From: Athalassotoga saccharophila
GTDB taxonomy: Bacteria; Thermotogota; Thermotogae; Mesoaciditogales; Mesoaciditogaceae
NCBI RefSeq assembly: GCF_009936215.1
Contig: NZ_AP019551.1
Coordinates: forward strand, 434,001 to 498,000
Reading direction: 5' to 3'
Length of the DNA stretch: 64,000 nucleotides
Shown: positions 5,817-59,323 of the stretch, one piece after another
Numbering within the stretch: position 1 is the stretch's first letter
Layout: every line of letters starts with the position of its first letter
Notes under the pieces: model-generated
What the model saw: only the letters and a program-made list of their open reading frames with translations
Told to the model about the DNA's origin: nothing
Databases searched by the model: none
Program-made: the position numbers and the translations under genes

Positions 5817-7118
5817 TTGTTGGTCTGGAGGTTTAAAGGAGGAATCCATCCTCCCACCAAAAAACTGGCAAAAGATTCCAAGATCGAGAATTTGAAACCG
5901 TCAAAGACGTATTCTCTTTTTGTGGCCCAAAATTCTGGAAATCCTCCGAAACTAATAGTTCAGGTCGGAAGTGAAGTAAAGACCGGTCAAAAAATAGCGG
6001 AGGCAGATGGTTTTGTTTCCGTTCCCCTTCATTCTCCCGTGACGGGAAAGGTAATCGAGATAAAAAAGGAAAAGCATCCCGTTACCGGAAGACCGGCAGA
6101 TATCGTCGTCATCGAGAGAACTTCAGATGATGAATGGGTAAAGTTAAGTGCCAAACCGTACACGGAATACACCCCAGAAGAGATCAAAAAAAGAGTTGCC
6201 GAGGCTGGCATTGTGGGTCTTGGAGGGGCAACCTTTCCAACTCATGTAAAACTTTCCCCTTCAAAAAAGGTGGATACCGTTATACTCAATGGCGCCGAGT
6301 GCGAACCATATTTGACAATAGATCAGCGCATGATGGTTGAATATGCCGAAGAGATATGTAAAGGTGGCATTGCAATCGCAAAATCTGTCGGGGCGACGAA
6401 GATCTTTGTAGGAATAGAAGAGAACAAACCAGACGCGATCGAAAGTATGAAAAAGGCCGGCAGCGCCTTCGGAATCGAGGTTGTTGTGCTTCCAACAAAA
6501 TATCCTCAAGGATCTGAAAAACATCTTATCTACGCCATAACAAAAAAACAGGTACCATCCGGTGGACTTCCAATGGATGTCGGCGTTGTGGTTGACAACG
6601 TCTCGACGGCGAGGGCAATTTATCGGGCGCTTGAATTTGGAGAGCCACTCATAGAAAGAGGCCTGACATTAACGGGAGAGGGCGTAAAAAATCAAAAGAA
6701 CGTTTTTGCAAGGATAGGGACACCTATCTCCGATCTTTTGGATTACGCAGAGGTAACGTCAGAAAGTGGAAGAGTTATACTTGGCGGTCCAATGACAGGA
6801 GTCGCCGTAGAATCTATTCAGATGGGCATTTCAAAGGGTACGTCTGGAATAACCGTTTTGCCCGAAGAAATTGTGAAAAAACCCGCAGAGACGAATTGCA
6901 TAAGATGTTACAGGTGCGTTGAGGCCTGCCCAACACAACTTGAACCTTATTTGCTTTACAAGATGTTTAAGAAGAAGATGTTCAACGAGATGAAAGAAGC
7001 ACATCTCATGGATTGTATAGAATGCGGATCTTGCGCCTACGTATGTCCTGCAAATATAGATCACGTTAAGGCATTTAAAACCGCCAAACTCGTTGTTAGA
7101 ACTCTCGGTAGGAGATGA
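5817..7118 (+). CDS. rnfC: Rnf electron transport complex subunit C
   Basis: RnfC is the peripheral FMN/NADH-binding, iron-sulfur subunit of the membrane Rnf complex, which couples ferredoxin:NAD+ electron flow to sodium or proton export. The 433-residue protein has the N-terminal GGIHPP motif, a Rossmann-like NADH site (VGLGGATFPTHVKL) and two C-terminal 4Fe-4S motifs (CIRCYRCVEACP and CIECGSCAYVCP). The TTG start follows AAGGAGATG. It opens an operon whose six genes overlap or touch, in the order C-D-G-E-A-B. Confidence 0.95.
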   Translation: MLVWRFKGGIHPPTKKLAKDSKIENLKPSKTYSLFVAQNSGNPPKLIVQVGSEVKTGQKIAEADGFVSVPLHSPVTGKVIEIKKEKHPVTGRPADIVVIERTSDDEWVKLSAKPYTEYTPEEIKKRVAEAGIVGLGGATFPTHVKLSPSKKVDTVILNGAECEPYLTIDQRMMVEYAEEICKGGIAIAKSVGATKIFVGIEENKPDAIESMKKAGSAFGIEVVVLPTKYPQGSEKHLIYAITKKQVPSGGLPMDVGVVVDNVSTARAIYRALEFGEPLIERGLTLTGEGVKNQKNVFARIGTPISDLLDYAEVTSESGRVILGGPMTGVAVESIQMGISKGTSGITVLPEEIVKKPAETNCIRCYRCVEACPTQLEPYLLYKMFKKKMFNEMKEAHLMDCIECGSCAYVCPANIDHVKAFKTAKLVVRTLGRR

Positions 7119-10787: not shown

Positions 10788-11783
10788 AGACTGGAGGCCT
10801 TTAAAGACGAGGTATTCGTGATTGATGCCGACCTTTACGTACTTTTCATTTAAGCGCGAGAAAAACCTTTGAAATTTCATAGGACTTATGGCCACCCTTA
10901 ACATCTTACCACACTCGATGGGGTAATTGTATTCGTATGCCGAAATTGCGGAGATAACGATGAATTTCATCGTGTTCGAAAGTTCTAAATATCCTCTCCC
11001 CCCGTTCCTCCTTTGAAATCTCGCCGCAAGCGTTGACCCTTCTTTGATCGCTTTTGTCGGGATTTCAAAGTCGCCAGCCTCAAAGTTAAGCAATTCATTT
11101 ATTTTACCTATATCGGAAGGCGTTGAACAGATCGACATCATCCCATCTGAAAATCTTATTCCGATTCCGCTTGTATATCCGATCTCAATTTTGTCCTCTC
11201 TTACCGCGTCAAGGGCTTTTACAAGATGTCTTACGCTCTCGTAAGGAATCTCTGCGGAAAATGGTCCACCCTTGAATTCGGTAAAGGCTATACCTGTATG
11301 GCCGTAATCTTCGGAGGCACAGAGTAATTTCTCACCTATACCGACAAAGATCATCTGACCTTCTCTCGAGATTATGCTTCCCAAATCGAGCACCTTTTTG
11401 AACTGAGAGGTGTATATTTTTTCCTCGGTCTCGATGCGATCGAACTTTCTCGGGTTTTGAACTAATGGATGGAGTATGGATATTATCTCCGTTCCACTCG
11501 AAATGTAGAGATTAGATCCAAAATTCATTCTTACCTCTTCGCTTTTTTCTCTCAAAAGCAATTTCAGATCATCGAGAGGAACAGTGTAAAATCCATCAAA
11601 TGAATCGATAGAGCCGAGTTCAAGATCGATCGAGAGACATCCATCTGTACCGTAGGCCATAAGTTTAGAAAGGTTTGTGTAAAAATACACCCTTCTCATT
11701 GAAGGCTCTATCGTACCACTTACCCTGTCGAAAATCCTTACGAATCTTTTGAATTTAGATTGATCTATTCTTATCTCTGGCAC
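10761..11783 (-). CDS. Divergent DNA sliding-clamp (DnaN)-like protein, tentative
   Basis: I do not recognise this 340-residue protein with certainty. Its layout resembles bacterial beta clamps (about 366 residues, three repeats). The first third has a YGTDGCLSIDLELG stretch followed by FYTVPLDDLKLLLR, mirroring the clamp ATDLEISI ... VPARKL pattern. The C-terminus (VGINHEYLVFKGLQSLLIVKI) mirrors the clamp NARYLLDAL ... MPMRL region. The usual C-terminal MPMRL binding pocket is not conserved, so it may be a diverged paralogue or an accessory clamp. It is the last gene of a minus-strand operon with YchF and ribokinase, and its 3' end overlaps the AhpD-like gene by 27 bases. Confidence 0.5.
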   Translation of the reverse strand: MPEIRIDQSKFKRFVRIFDRVSGTIEPSMRRVYFYTNLSKLMAYGTDGCLSIDLELGSIDSFDGFYTVPLDDLKLLLREKSEEVRMNFGSNLYISSGTEIISILHPLVQNPRKFDRIETEEKIYTSQFKKVLDLGSIISREGQMIFVGIGEKLLCASEDYGHTGIAFTEFKGGPFSAEIPYESVRHLVKALDAVREDKIEIGYTSGIGIRFSDGMMSICSTPSDIGKINELLNFEAGDFEIPTKAIKEGSTLAARFQRRNGGRGYLELSNTMKFIVISAISAYEYNYPIECGKMLRVAISPMKFQRFFSRLNEKYVKVGINHEYLVFKGLQSLLIVKIER

Positions 11784-55073: not shown

Positions 55074-55148
55074 GCCTCTATAGTTCAATGGATAGAACGG
55101 TGGATTCCTAATCCGCAAATGCAGGTTCGATTCCTGCTAGGGGCACCA
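55074..55148 (+). tRNA. tRNA-Arg (anticodon CCU)
   Basis: A complete cloverleaf of 75 bases including an encoded CCA end. The acceptor stem GCCTCTA pairs with TAGGGGC (one G-T), D stem GTTC/GAAC, anticodon stem GTGGA/TCCGC (one G-C, one T-G pair) with loop TTCCTAA, and T arm GCAGG TTCGATT CCTGC. The anticodon CCT (55107-55109) reads AGG codons, which are common in this genome. An accessory island starts right after it. Confidence 0.95.
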
Positions 55149-55154
55149 GATATA

Positions 55155-55337
55155 TATTACTTGGTAACCGTGTAATGGACGGGCACCAAGAAATGGTAAA
55201 GAAGTTTAAATCCTCAATCTCACGATGGCCGTAATAAATCTATAAGGCTGTGCCGCCGGCAAGATAAAAATCATCAACAAATGGTGCGGATCTATTACTT
55301 TGGGCGTTTTAAGGGGAATACCGTTGAGAACATGCAT
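55155..55337 (-). pseudogene. Broken AbiEii-like nucleotidyltransferase (toxin) remnant
   Basis: Downstream of the DUF6922-like gene the minus strand still codes HVLNGIPLKTPKVIDPHH, then after a frameshift FVDDFYLAGGTAL, then an in-frame TAG and IYYGHREIEDLNFFT, where it stops short near 55190. FYLAGGTAL and the D-x-N/DFF pair are the nucleotidyltransferase active-site signature of AbiEii/MenT-like toxins. It has at least one frameshift, one stop and lacks the whole C-terminal part, so it is dead. Confidence 0.75.
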
Positions 55338-55614
55338 ATACCTCCTCGGTAGGTATATCAAGAATGGTAGACCAAAACGTTGCGACACGTTTTGAGATGT
55401 TCCTTGAATTTTTAACAACGTATCTTATTTCATCGTCCGAATAGATAGTTCTCAATTCTTTAATCTGCTCCATGACGCCGTACTCAAGCACTCTGGCAAT
55501 TATGAAATTTTTATCTTTGATGATATCCAGTTTAGACGCATCAACATCCCAGAAACAGTTGTTAAAGGAAGCGAATTGAAATGGGGTAGAAATTGAAATC
55601 ACCTTCTTTTTCAT
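55309..55614 (-). CDS. DUF6922-like protein, partner of the broken nucleotidyltransferase
   Basis: A 101-residue protein. The middle FWDVDASKLDIIKDKNFIIA and VLEYGVMEQIKELRTIYSDD followed by RNISKRVATFWSTILDIP fit the small helical DUF6922-type proteins found directly upstream of nucleotidyltransferase toxins, where they may act as antitoxin or adaptor. The frame is intact while its partner is broken. The ATG at 55614 has no clear ribosome binding site. A TATAAT-like box lies about 25 bases upstream. Confidence 0.65.
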   Translation of the reverse strand: MKKKVISISTPFQFASFNNCFWDVDASKLDIIKDKNFIIARVLEYGVMEQIKELRTIYSDDEIRYVVKNSRNISKRVATFWSTILDIPTEEVYACSQRYSP

Positions 55615-55659
55615 GGAGAAATCTTTTTATGCATTTTAACAATTATAACATGGAACAGC

Positions 55660-55747
55660 GCATGGCCAATGGCAAATGGCTTATAGCGTATGGCGAATAG
55701 CAAAGACCGAGATTAGGCGTTAGGGATTAGACATTAGAGGTTAGAAA
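55660..55747. repeat. 7-bp-periodic degenerate repeat tract 1
   Basis: A noncoding tract that can be read as heptads: first six units of the form NATGGCN (CATGGCC AATGGCA ...), then five of the form NNTTAGN (GATTAGG CGTTAGG ...). It separates the DUF6922-like gene from the ATPase operator. Confidence 0.75.
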
Positions 55748-55750
55748 AAC

Positions 55751-55787
55751 ACTTCCGCCCTCGGAAGTAACTTCCGGTACCGGAAGT
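55751..55787 (+). promoter_or_regulatory. Two tandem 18-bp palindromes before the ATPase gene
   Basis: ACTTCCGCCCTCGGAAGT (55751-55768) and ACTTCCGGTACCGGAAGT (55770-55787): two copies of the inverted repeat ACTTCCG N4 CGGAAGT, 19 bp centre to centre (about two DNA turns). They end 2 bases before the -10 box TATAAT (55790-55795). This is the layout of a repressor operator covering the promoter. Confidence 0.75.
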
Positions 55788-55789
55788 GA

Positions 55790-55795
55790 TATAAT
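55790..55795 (+). promoter_or_regulatory. -10 box of the ATPase promoter
   Basis: TATAAT directly after the second palindrome; no good -35, which suggests an activator or overlap with the operator. Confidence 0.55.
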
Positions 55796-55811
55796 CACTC
55801 TGGGTGATAAA

Positions 55812-56906
55812 ATGCTTTTTGATCTAAAGCCAAAAGAGGATATAAAAAGTTTTTTTGACAGAGAAGAAGAGATAAATGATCTTGTTGATTCAATAGAAAA
55901 GTATCCGCTTACGATGGTTACGGGGCTGAGGAGGATCGGAAAATCTTCTCTTGTGCGGACGGTCATAAAAGATAAGGAATATCAAAGTGTATTTTTGGAC
56001 GGAAGAGCGATGTATGCAAACAGTGGTGGAAATATAAAGAAGGCGGATTTGATCCAAAGATTGCAAAATGCCCTTTCTGAATTTTCAAATTTTGAGAAAT
56101 TAAAAATTTTTCTGACAAATTTAAGGGGAATATCCGTTAAAGATCTTTCGTTGTCGATGAACTGGAAAGAAGTGGACCTGCTCTCTTTGATAGAAAAGAT
56201 CGAGAAATTCAGTGAGAAAGAAAACAATTACACCATCTTTTTCTTTGACGAGGCACAATACTTAAAGTATTACGGAACAAAAGGAGGCAATGATTTACTT
56301 TCGCTTTTTTCTTACATGTACGATAATTTCAAGTTCATAAAGATAATAATTTCCGGATCGGAAATAGGCCTTCTCCACAATTTTTTAAACGTGGATGATT
56401 ACAAATCACCACTTTACGGAAGATATATAAGGGAAATTTCTTTGAATCCATTCGATAAATTAACATCGATTTCATTCCTTGAAAAAGGGTTTGATGAAAT
56501 AAAGGTAAAGATCGATCGGGAAGATATTCGAAAAGCAGTTGAGATTTTAGATGGCATTCCGGGCTATCTTGTTGAATTTGGAAACCGGTATGCTCAATTT
56601 AAAGATCTTGATATGGCCATAAAAAGCACATTTCAAGGCCTTTCCGGAATGGTAGAAGGAGAGATAAAAGAGTTAGAAAGGAAGAGTCCAAGATATGTTC
56701 AGACGCTTGCGTACATCTCAAATGGAATAAATACGTGGTCCGGTTTAAAAAATGCATTTTTTGCGAAAGGTGACACGATATCCGATTCAAGGCTTTACGA
56801 GATACTTAAAAATTTGGAAAAGATGACATGGATAAAGCAAGAAAATACCGGTGAAAAATACAAAATAATAGATAACGTTTTAAAAGAAATATTGAAAAAA
56901 CGGTGA
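55812..56906 (+). CDS. Archaeal-type P-loop ATPase (MNS/STAND-like)
   Basis: A 364-residue ATPase of the 'archaeal ATPase' family. The FFDREEEINDLVDSI motif precedes Walker A GLRRIGKSSLVR (about residue 43). Walker B is FFFDEAQYL (about residue 147), sensor 1 IIISGSE, and a C-terminal winged-helix part follows (residues 285-360, LAYISNGINTWSGLKNAF). These genes are abundant in mobile parts of thermophile genomes; their role is unclear (defence, transposition or self-maintenance). The ATG follows GGGTGA. It is preceded by tandem palindromes and followed by heptad repeats. Confidence 0.85.
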   Translation: MLFDLKPKEDIKSFFDREEEINDLVDSIEKYPLTMVTGLRRIGKSSLVRTVIKDKEYQSVFLDGRAMYANSGGNIKKADLIQRLQNALSEFSNFEKLKIFLTNLRGISVKDLSLSMNWKEVDLLSLIEKIEKFSEKENNYTIFFFDEAQYLKYYGTKGGNDLLSLFSYMYDNFKFIKIIISGSEIGLLHNFLNVDDYKSPLYGRYIREISLNPFDKLTSISFLEKGFDEIKVKIDREDIRKAVEILDGIPGYLVEFGNRYAQFKDLDMAIKSTFQGLSGMVEGEIKELERKSPRYVQTLAYISNGINTWSGLKNAFFAKGDTISDSRLYEILKNLEKMTWIKQENTGEKYKIIDNVLKEILKKR

Positions 56907-57085
56907 TGCGTAACGAGTAATCAGCAAAAAAGCAGAGATTAGAGACTGGACATTAGAGATTAGGGGAAAAACGGCAGGTGGCTCGTAGCGGGTAGCACGT
57001 AGAAAAAATAATAATGCGTGATCGGTAAACAGTAAGCAGTGACAGGTGAGCAATCAGCAAATGACACATTGCCAATAGCAGGTGA
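56907..57085. repeat. 7-bp-periodic degenerate repeat tract 2
   Basis: A noncoding tract between the ATPase and Fic genes with runs of heptads such as GCGTAAC GAGTAAT, then GATTAGA-type units, then GCTCGTA GCGGGTA, then CGGTAAA CAGTAAG CAGTGAC. Units change gradually along the tract. Confidence 0.7.
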
Positions 57086-57102
57086 AAAAACAAAACAACG
57101 TC

Positions 57103-57123
57103 ATCCCGCATCACGTGCGGGAT
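57103..57123 (-). terminator. Hairpin after the fic gene
   Basis: ATCCCGCA / TGCGGGAT (8-bp stem, 5-base loop); on the minus strand it is followed by GTTGTTTTGTTTTTTC, a T-rich tail. Probably the fic terminator. Confidence 0.65.
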
Positions 57124-57136
57124 CACATTGAGGCCC

Positions 57137-58309
57137 TTAAAGGCGATTCTCGTTTTTGTTTAAAAACTCAGGAATAAATTTCTCACTTTCCAAAGACTTG
57201 ATTATACCCCTAAGAAGGTAATTATTTGCAAAGTTGATTGTGTAAATCCTCTCTTTTGTTTCTATCGGCTTGATCATGTTTTTTTCTTTCATTCTTGACA
57301 TTGTACGAGATTTTTGAACAGAATTTGTGATACCGAAGATTTTCAATTCTTCTGATTTCATTGTCATATCGTCCTTTAAAATGAGGTATTTCAAAATTTG
57401 ATATTCTCTGTCCGTAATTTGCTTTCTATCAAGAGAAAATGAAATTGCCGGCAATAAAAGTGATTGTTGAACATATTTTTTAACGAGAAAGTGATCAATT
57501 TTTTCAATTTCATCTTTTAACCCAGACAAAAAGTATTCTGACCATTGAAGTAAATCTTCATCTTTTAGAGAATCTGCTCTTGATAAAAAGTTATAATATT
57601 TTTCCCTATCGTTGTAAAAGATGGAAGAAGGGTTTATGATTCTCAAATCTTTTACGCGAAAGCCAATTTTTATTAGCAAAGCATAATTAAGCAATCTACC
57701 CATTCTCCCATTACCATTATCAAAAGGGTGAATGTACGCAAATCTATGGTGCGCAATGGCTATCATAAGAAGTTGATACTGTTCTGGCCAACTTTGGTTG
57801 ATGAAATTCAAAAATGAATCGAAATGATCTCTCAATGCGGCCGCATCGGGAGGAATATGAGAAGATTTTTTTATATGAACATTATGTTTTCGCAATTCTC
57901 CTGGATACATTGAACCTTCCCCATGTGGCGGTGGAGTGAGTTCCTTCGTAATAATCTTGTGAACTTCGGAGATATATGCTCTTGTAAATTTTGTATTTTC
58001 ATCAGTTTGATCTTCAATCCATTTTATAGCTTCATCAAGGTTCTCTATTTCTTTTTGAGATTCATCTTTGTATGCTGATTTTTCGATTATCTTCTCAACG
58101 TATTCTGAAAGAGTGGTATTATTTCCTTCTATTCTTGCAGAACCAAATGTTTCAAGGATTTGGAAAATATCTTTCAATTGGAGAAATATCCATTTTGGAA
58201 CTTCCCCGACAGATTGGTTTGACCTCAATTTTTCAAGTTTCAAAATAATACCTGTAAGATTACTTCCCCATTTTGGTTCAGGGATTTTGATTTCTATGTC
58301 GTTTAACAA
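57137..58309 (-). CDS. Fic-family protein (AMP transferase type), class II
   Basis: A 390-residue Fic protein. The active-site motif HPFDNGNGRMGRL (about residue 195) is intact, and an inhibitory helix motif SARIEGNN lies near residue 58, so it is self-inhibited from its N-terminal side. The C-terminal part (residues 290-390) is a winged-helix-like domain. Fic enzymes AMPylate target proteins. I chose the TTG at 58309, 8 bases after AAGGTGG; a GTG at 58321 lies within that site. It stands alone, with a promoter carrying repeated boxes. Confidence 0.85.
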   Translation of the reverse strand: MLNDIEIKIPEPKWGSNLTGIILKLEKLRSNQSVGEVPKWIFLQLKDIFQILETFGSARIEGNNTTLSEYVEKIIEKSAYKDESQKEIENLDEAIKWIEDQTDENTKFTRAYISEVHKIITKELTPPPHGEGSMYPGELRKHNVHIKKSSHIPPDAAALRDHFDSFLNFINQSWPEQYQLLMIAIAHHRFAYIHPFDNGNGRMGRLLNYALLIKIGFRVKDLRIINPSSIFYNDREKYYNFLSRADSLKDEDLLQWSEYFLSGLKDEIEKIDHFLVKKYVQQSLLLPAISFSLDRKQITDREYQILKYLILKDDMTMKSEELKIFGITNSVQKSRTMSRMKEKNMIKPIETKERIYTINFANNYLLRGIIKSLESEKFIPEFLNKNENRL

Positions 58310-58333
58310 TTTACTTGCCACCTTACAAAAAAT

Positions 58334-58432
58334 TACTTATCATTATTATATCACTAAATCCTATTTTAAAAGTAAAAAATGAAAAAATAATTAATTGGTT
58401 ACTTATCATTATTTAAAAATACTACTTATCAT
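58334..58432. promoter_or_regulatory. Three TACTTATCAT boxes upstream of fic
   Basis: Three identical copies of TACTTATCAT at 58334-58343, 58400-58409 and 58423-58432. On the minus strand they read ATGATAAGTA; the first sits directly next to the fic -10 box TATAAT (58350-58345). They look like operator sites for an unknown regulator. Confidence 0.6.
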
Positions 58433-58450
58433 CGATCAGCAAAAAAGAGT

Positions 58451-58572
58451 ATGGCAAATGGCATATGGCAGATGGCGAATAGTAAAAAGAGATTAGAGAT
58501 TAAAAAAGGCCGTTATCAGTAACGCGTAATCAGTGAACAGCGGGAATTGACAAAAGCAACTTTTTATGATAT
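58451..58572. repeat. Direct repeat A: heptad tract ending in a promoter
   Basis: About 122 bases nearly identical to 59023-59143. It begins with ATGGCAA-type heptads, passes through GATTAGA and GTAATCA-type heptads and ends in TTGACA - 17 bases - TATCTT, a near-consensus promoter pointing to the antitoxin gene. Confidence 0.85.
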
Positions 58573-58575
58573 CTT
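58547..58575 (+). promoter_or_regulatory. Promoter at the end of repeat A
   Basis: -35 TTGACA (58547-58552), 17-base spacer, -10 TATCTT (58570-58575), 35 bases before the antitoxin start. Confidence 0.7.
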
Positions 58576-58610
58576 TAATTGTAAAGAATTAACATTACGA
58601 AGATGATTAT

Positions 58611-58862
58611 ATGCCAAGCAATACAAGGATTGTGAATATGTCTATTCCTTTAGATATTTACGATAAAGTGGATAAAATGGCAAGAAAGAGAAAAACTTCT
58701 AAAAGTAGCATCTTAAAAGAAGCCTTGGAACGTTATATTATAGAAGAAGAAAAATGGAACCTGATCTACAAGTGGGGCGAGGAAAAATCTAAATCACTTG
58801 GAATAAGAGATGAAAAAGATGTCGCTCAACTTATCAAAGACTTTCGTCAATATCATAAATAA
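58611..58862 (+). CDS. Ribbon-helix-helix (CopG-type) antitoxin
   Basis: An 83-residue protein. The N-terminal beta strand and helix pair (NTRIVNMSIPLDIYDKVDKM, then KTSKSSILKEALERYI) form a ribbon-helix-helix fold. The C-terminal acidic/basic tail would hold the PIN toxin. Its partner gene right after it is broken. Ribosome binding site weak. Confidence 0.8.
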   Translation: MPSNTRIVNMSIPLDIYDKVDKMARKRKTSKSSILKEALERYIIEEEKWNLIYKWGEEKSKSLGIRDEKDVAQLIKDFRQYHK

Positions 58863-59022
58863 TGATGAAAGTCGTCTTAGATACTAATGTTTTCATTTCT
58901 GCTATTTTGACTCCTGGGAACCCAAGAAAGATTTTGGAATTTGCAAGAAGAGACACTTCACTTACCATTTATCAGAATTCATTCTATGGGAAATAGAAAG
59001 GATTCTCAAAAGAAAAATTGGA
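58862..59022 (+). pseudogene. PIN-domain toxin remnant
   Basis: From the ATG overlapping the antitoxin stop the frame codes MMKVVLDTNVFISAIL and TPGNPRKILEFA, the start of a PIN RNase (Asp4-type acidic residue present). After about residue 30 a frameshift leads to a stop at 58996; the other frame continues HLSEFILWEIERILKRKIG and then runs into repeat B. The gene is thus frameshifted and truncated by the repeat. Confidence 0.85.
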
Positions 59023-59143
59023 ATGGCCAATGGCAGATGGCAGATGGCGAATAGTAAAAAGAGATTAGAGATTAAAAAGGCCGTGATCAGTAACGCGTGA
59101 TCAGTGATCAGCGGGAATTGACAAAAGCAATTTTTTATGATAG
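59023..59143. repeat. Direct repeat B: heptad tract ending in a promoter
   Basis: Nearly identical to repeat A (58451-58572), including the TTGACA - 17 - TAGTAT promoter at its end. It starts exactly where the PIN reading frame is lost. Confidence 0.85.
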
Positions 59144-59146
59144 TAT
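59118..59146 (+). promoter_or_regulatory. Promoter at the end of repeat B
   Basis: -35 TTGACA (59118-59123), 17-base spacer, -10 TAGTAT (59141-59146), about 175 bases before the lipoprotein gene. The stretch 59147-59320 holds no other gene. Confidence 0.6.
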
Positions 59147-59323
59147 TTGCTAAATTGAACGGTAATCAATTCTATTTTGGGGTTTAAAAATTGAGTAAGT
59201 GTCAAGTACATTGAATTCACGAAGTACTTTACCAGATAATTCAAATTACAATGGAAGCCCACTTCTTGTGTTTAGAATTTATTTTACATAGATAACTTGC
59301 ATTGGGAATGAGGTGGGGTAATG

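Follow-up and report, generated by a model that had tools for sequence, protein, structure and literature searches.

Heptanucleotide repeats are over-represented in bacteria, and their slippage has been proposed to be tied to the contact length of the polymerase (PMC4679880, PMC4692102). Known heptamers include GGGAATC in Xanthomonas, GGGGA(T/C)T in Nostoc, TAACTGA in Beggiatoaceae, the mixed heptamers of Microcystis and the cyanobacterial STRR; 7-nt indels occur between Cyanothece strains, and repeat length varies between Xanthomonas species (PMC4679880, PMC4692102). The word 'toxin' is absent from both papers, and we found no heptamer repeats described as borders of toxin–antitoxin (TA) modules in the open-access literature. 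The tracts analysed here work like heptanucleotide LSSR but in a degenerate, compound form. They have the tandem 7-bp periodicity, intergenic location and whole-unit change by which LSSR/STRR are recognized and, like them, are lineage-restricted and drifting or mixed, differ between relatives by 7-nt indels, sometimes form convergent pairs and have no known enzyme. Unlike in LSSR/STRR, a single short tract here strings together several alternating unit classes in a set order with A-runs between them, and tracts lie at the borders of TA modules and CRISPR arrays that vary in content or order from species to species. A single perfect or near-perfect unit along the tract, typical of many LSSR members though not of mixed-heptamer repeats (in Microcystis, for example), was not seen in the window, where the unit class shifts within each tract. 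Heptanucleotide repeats as such are already known; what appears to be new is their putative role as the seams along which defence modules are shuffled.

The window is a 64-kb stretch of the 2.04-Mb source genome G000 (G000:C1:434001-498000), and its tracts lie in an island of genes called with a simple script (Table 1). The original prediction held that drifting 7-bp repeats of the classes ATGGCNN, ATTAGNN, GTAANNN and GCNNGTA occupy the gaps of this island. All of these classes were present, and the match at a lag of 7 bp was 0.51–0.60 against ~0.28 in shuffled sequence (0.596, 0.513, 0.516 and 0.558 for tracts 1–4; dinucleotide-shuffle means 0.27–0.30, z 6–7.5), a value attained by 0 of 1,000 dinucleotide shuffles for each of the four tracts. 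Ranked by 90-bp segments, the top four period-7 sites of the whole window are the four tracts, of which a tandem-repeat finder caught only fragments (scores 30–47), because the unit changes along the tract. The starts of the second and third tracts are corrected to ~56.90 and ~58.37 kb. The tracts at 58.45 and 59.02 kb are near-identical copies (114/121 bases, 94%, between 58451-58571 and 59023-59142) and therefore not independent. These 121-bp direct repeats flank a broken TA pair, and the second copy interrupts the PIN-like frame. A role in RNA structure or as terminators was rejected for the window tracts, which fold no better than shuffles (z 0.39 to -1.29).

Table 1 Features of the island and its left edge (positions in the window)
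Feature	Position	Strand	Remarks
Whole island	55152..59321	.	Missing from sister genome G001
tRNA-like sequence (approximate ends)	55079..55148	+	Sequence reading and alignment; island's left edge
AbiEii-type nucleotidyltransferase relic	55195..55308	-	Intact relative in G003 (L086:608-1234)
DUF6922 gene, the nucleotidyltransferase's partner	55309..55614	-	PF21956, E 2.7e-18
Heptad tract 1	55636..55746	.	ATGGCNN/ATAGCNN block, then ATTAGNN block
ATPase_2 family gene	55812..56906	+	PF01637, E 1.9e-25
Heptad tract 2	56903..57081	.	Blocks GTAACGA/GTAATCA, AGAGATT, GTRGCNN, GTRANCA; A-runs between
Fic family gene	57137..58321	-	PF02661, E 8.7e-16
Heptad tract 3 and its 3′ neighbour	58366..58571	.	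58451-58571 is direct repeat copy 1
Ribbon-helix-helix antitoxin-like gene	58611..58862	+	PF01402, E 5.2e-7
PIN-like toxin relic, truncated by tract 4	58865..59021	+	Sequence reading, MKVVLDTNVFISAILTPGNP
Heptad tract 4	59022..59142	.	59023-59142 is direct repeat copy 2; start inside PIN-like reading frame

The periodicity extends beyond the island. In 633 kb of the source genome, 27 segments scored at least 25 at lag 7, and 0–2 did so at each of the remaining lags between 4 and 15 save the harmonic 14; this sample comprises the window and further stretches in which tract-bearing DNA is over-represented, and lags are compared within the same DNA. The autocorrelation check proposed with the original prediction thus returned the period-7 peak. 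Pattern searches and sampled stretches placed the family at ~22 loci dispersed over the 2.04-Mb chromosome, a count made by hand from overlapping searches with part of the genome read base by base. Reversed-pattern controls had no ATGGC-class or ATTGA-class matches and 1–2 chance matches for the two weaker patterns. About 13 of the loci, more than half, lie between core genes, and the family is therefore not peculiar to the island; nearly all tracts are intergenic, with a few overlapping gene ends or doubtful called ORFs. The statement that the tracts are always next to mobile-type genes is true of the window and fails genome-wide, because the same classes occur elsewhere, often beside core genes. 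The family is uneven in the genome rather than evenly spread in all intergenic DNA. The source genome was assigned to Thermotogota from its gene content and CRISPR repeat type. Across 103 genomes of that phylum, ATTGANA units matched 53 times in the source genome, 39 times in G001, 8 in G003, 13 in G005 and once in G004; it is nearly restricted to two genera of the same family, with one match each in three distant genomes. We take the tracts to be members of a family of degenerate heptanucleotide simple repeats that is intergenic, genome-wide and lineage-restricted.

Heptad repeats of many unrelated sequences are present across phyla, and a scan for five RTRGCNN units returned at least 117 stretches across many phyla and at least 120 in viral contigs. 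This breadth of unrelated repeats, as well as the tracts between core genes, speaks for neutral slippage as the only process, under which tracts would grow wherever intergenic DNA is unconstrained and TA and CRISPR modules would be their neighbours just because they too accumulate in such places. Three further candidates were rejected. A universal unit grammar across phyla (R-T-D-R, one stop codon per heptad) fitted 45% in tracts of other phyla versus 50% for shuffled units, and the uneven distribution of stop codons over frames and strands also counts against it. Four-helix-bundle IVP genes were considered as carriers, but the two genomes with most of the class-C tracts, G000 and G001, lack them. 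An association with TA modules in other phyla was dropped, the multi-tract loci read there lying mostly among ordinary genes. In L067 (G005) and L074 (G004), rml-type sugar genes are separated by long heptad tracts, and 23S rRNA intervening-sequence protein genes (PF05635) are inserted between rml-type sugar genes in these two genomes. A dispersed repeat of ~150 bp adjoins a heptad tract at L066 about 11190-11345 (G000:C1 about 1889.2 kb); it ends in the promoter-like stretch TTGAATTTTGTTTGGTATA. G003 has >20 copies of this repeat, and G002 has a 37-bp core of it.

Within tracts, the match fell from 0.63 at lag 7 to 0.54, 0.46, 0.35 and 0.32 at lags 14, 21, 28 and 35 (neighbouring lags ~0.29). 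Such decay per 7-bp step is the mark of local duplication with drift, adjacent units being most alike. Among ten dispersed near-identical copies of the CRISPR-side unit, three differ by exactly one heptad; the number of RTRGC units also varies, and substitutions in the RTRGC block cluster at the two free positions. Single-unit indels between recent copies indicate that slippage operates and, taken with the lag decay, suggest that units drift and change by slippage or unequal exchange. The family changes in 7-bp steps, and the original prediction was right to see in it an expanding 7-bp family of the kind known from cyanobacteria, dense beside selfish genes. Of the copying modes originally offered, slippage is borne out by the one-heptad indels and the lag decay, and a nearby copying element is not: we found no integron integrase above cut-off in ten genomes of the family, and no fixed ends or target duplications at the junctions read. 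Stepwise change and lag decay are also what neutral slippage alone would produce. However, non-orthologous loci share block order and junctions, which independent slippage would not yield: the order RTRGC block, RTAG-AAAA, ATTGA or ATTAG block is repeated at unrelated loci, and block-wise copying of composite tracts is therefore needed as well. From this order we infer that composite tracts (RTRGCNN block, A-run, ATTGANA/ATTAGNN block, A-run, GTRANCA block) have probably been duplicated as blocks to new sites. Tracts at junctions of changed module order, and modules surrounded by 121-bp and 48-bp direct repeats, also argue against neutral slippage on its own, which we judge unlikely, though a serious contender.

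In the window, the tracts surround the DUF6922 gene with the AbiEii relic, the ATPase_2 gene, the Fic gene, and the ribbon-helix-helix antitoxin with its cut PIN-like gene; the intact nucleotidyltransferase of G003 matches AbiEii (PF08843, E 9.5e-17). At 630–637 kb, tracts separate AT-PIN, ParE-like, nucleotidyltransferase, HicBA, DUF433-DUF5615, DUF2283-PBECR2 and second HicBA modules. All five CRISPR arrays found, which share one repeat, abut a tract block at one end; the other end carries a conserved 500-bp flank, interpreted as the leader. The 140-bp CRISPR-side unit folds better than shuffles (z -5.3), unlike the window tracts. Defence genes adjoin 9 of 22 tract loci against 6 of 61 control gaps of at least 100 bp (p 0.003); collapsing the five CRISPR loci, which share one duplicated unit, to a single locus leaves 5 of 18 (p 0.11). 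Because significance falls in this way, we regard the enrichment of tracts beside defence genes as suggestive. Control stretches at fixed positions, 357 kb in all, contained five TA modules, and no tract touched any of them. The arrays lie at L022 about 16.6–17.8 kb, L023 3.7–4.9 and 17.5–18.7 kb, L024 8.3–10.3 kb and L064 4.4–6.7 kb, and in all five the array, 500-bp flank and heptad tract were apparently duplicated together. A candidate cobalamin-riboswitch-like sequence was read downstream of a CRISPR flank at L064 about 6700-6900.

Comparison with related genomes, also proposed with the original prediction, revealed tracts gained and lost between sister species and different classes at orthologous sites; the sister genomes are drafts of 80–170 contigs, and most changes are unpolarised. 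The 4.17-kb island is replaced in G001 by 202 bp free of heptad tracts, between the tRNA-like sequence and a lipoprotein-like gene (flanks 89% identical), so a tract was not required there as a landing place. The tRNA-like sequence is kept in three sister species, and the DNA downstream of it differs among them. An AbiE-like module stands beside this sequence in G000 and beside a murJ-like gene in G003, together with tracts. Elsewhere in G000, a stretch of 888 bp carrying a tract and MazE-PIN is shared with G003, but G001 has 12 bp in its place and G002 has 22 bp. The gap between the udk-like and flagellar genes (udk-flgG) holds a tract, a 302-aa ORF and a second tract in G000, the two tracts sharing a direct repeat of ~48 bp; in G001 it holds a short tract only, the ORF being absent. 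This ORF gave no significant family match; it may be Rpn-like. AT-PIN, HicBA and DUF2283-PBECR2 are ordered differently in G000 and G003, with heptads on the junctions read. The events are few, and at the junctions read the module indels and re-orderings carry tracts; the tRNA-like site differs, G001 having none. A TnpB-like C-terminal fragment, identified by reading, adjoins the TA island of G003 (L071:6632-6829).

Because modules are gained, lost and re-ordered at tracts between sister species, the tracts look like recombination seams. The earlier interpretation is partly supported, and the best reading combines slippage, block-wise duplication and recombination. We consider it probable, if well short of certain, that a repeat family, block copying and recombination together make the tracts passive seams of defence-module islands, in which case they would be neither an autonomous element nor the site of a dedicated recombinase. 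Heptad units are gained and lost in 7-bp steps, and under this model composite tracts would be copied block by block to other sites. The dozens of similar tracts in the chromosome would then allow ordinary recombination, homologous or illegitimate, to capture, duplicate, delete and re-order the DNA between them. Much of the DNA so moved would be TA and other defence modules, including TA pairs, AbiE, Fic and CRISPR arrays. Counting against the model are the many tracts beside core genes, the five control TA modules that touch no tract, the loss of significance once the CRISPR loci are collapsed, and the tract-free empty site of G001. A stronger version is unlikely: an integrase-free cassette system, in which dispersed low-complexity homology might assemble, shuffle and duplicate islands of TA, CRISPR and other defence genes and continual 7-bp slippage might keep it recombinogenic. 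If the seam model is right, short, unit-changing repeats at module borders would offer a simple route by which defence islands grow with neither integrase nor transposase, providing homology in many places with no enzyme of their own, and heptanucleotide repeats, long without a clear role, would be seen to shape how genomes evolve. Close sister genomes show the empty, filled and re-ordered states, which makes the seam idea directly testable.

Two enzyme-dependent readings bear on the same comparisons. At several sites, tracts of about 45–250 bp show clean presence or absence between species, some giving way to a different class, and near-identical 140-bp units are dispersed, so the tracts resemble MITE or REP sequences as many short intergenic copies that come and go between species; a non-autonomous element of that kind would be moved by a transposase acting in trans. 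The junctions read between sister species, where empty sites have diverged, showed neither shared ends nor target duplications. Length and composition vary freely, different classes occupy orthologous sites, an internal 7-bp periodicity changes in copy number, and the window tracts fold like shuffles (z 0.4 to -1.3), with the CRISPR-side unit as an exception (z -5.3). We therefore hold a MITE-like or REP-like element to be improbable. Small TA modules in rows, mostly in one orientation, with related direct repeats between successive modules and evidence of re-ordering, recall the Vibrio chromosomal superintegrons with TA cassettes, in which case each tract would be an attC-like site of a dedicated tyrosine recombinase. 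However, 10 genomes of the family contain no integron integrase at the family cut-off, and the weak integrase matches are of the kind seen in 14 of 14 control genomes. Unlike superintegron sites, the window tracts have no attC-like fold, no conserved core site was seen, and tracts also occur alone between core genes. The integron-like reading is largely refuted and, in our estimate, very improbable. Two contigs of the source genome, C2 and C3, are near-equal in length (43.7 and 43.5 kb) and each contain a tyrosine recombinase match; they are possibly plasmids or related mobile elements.
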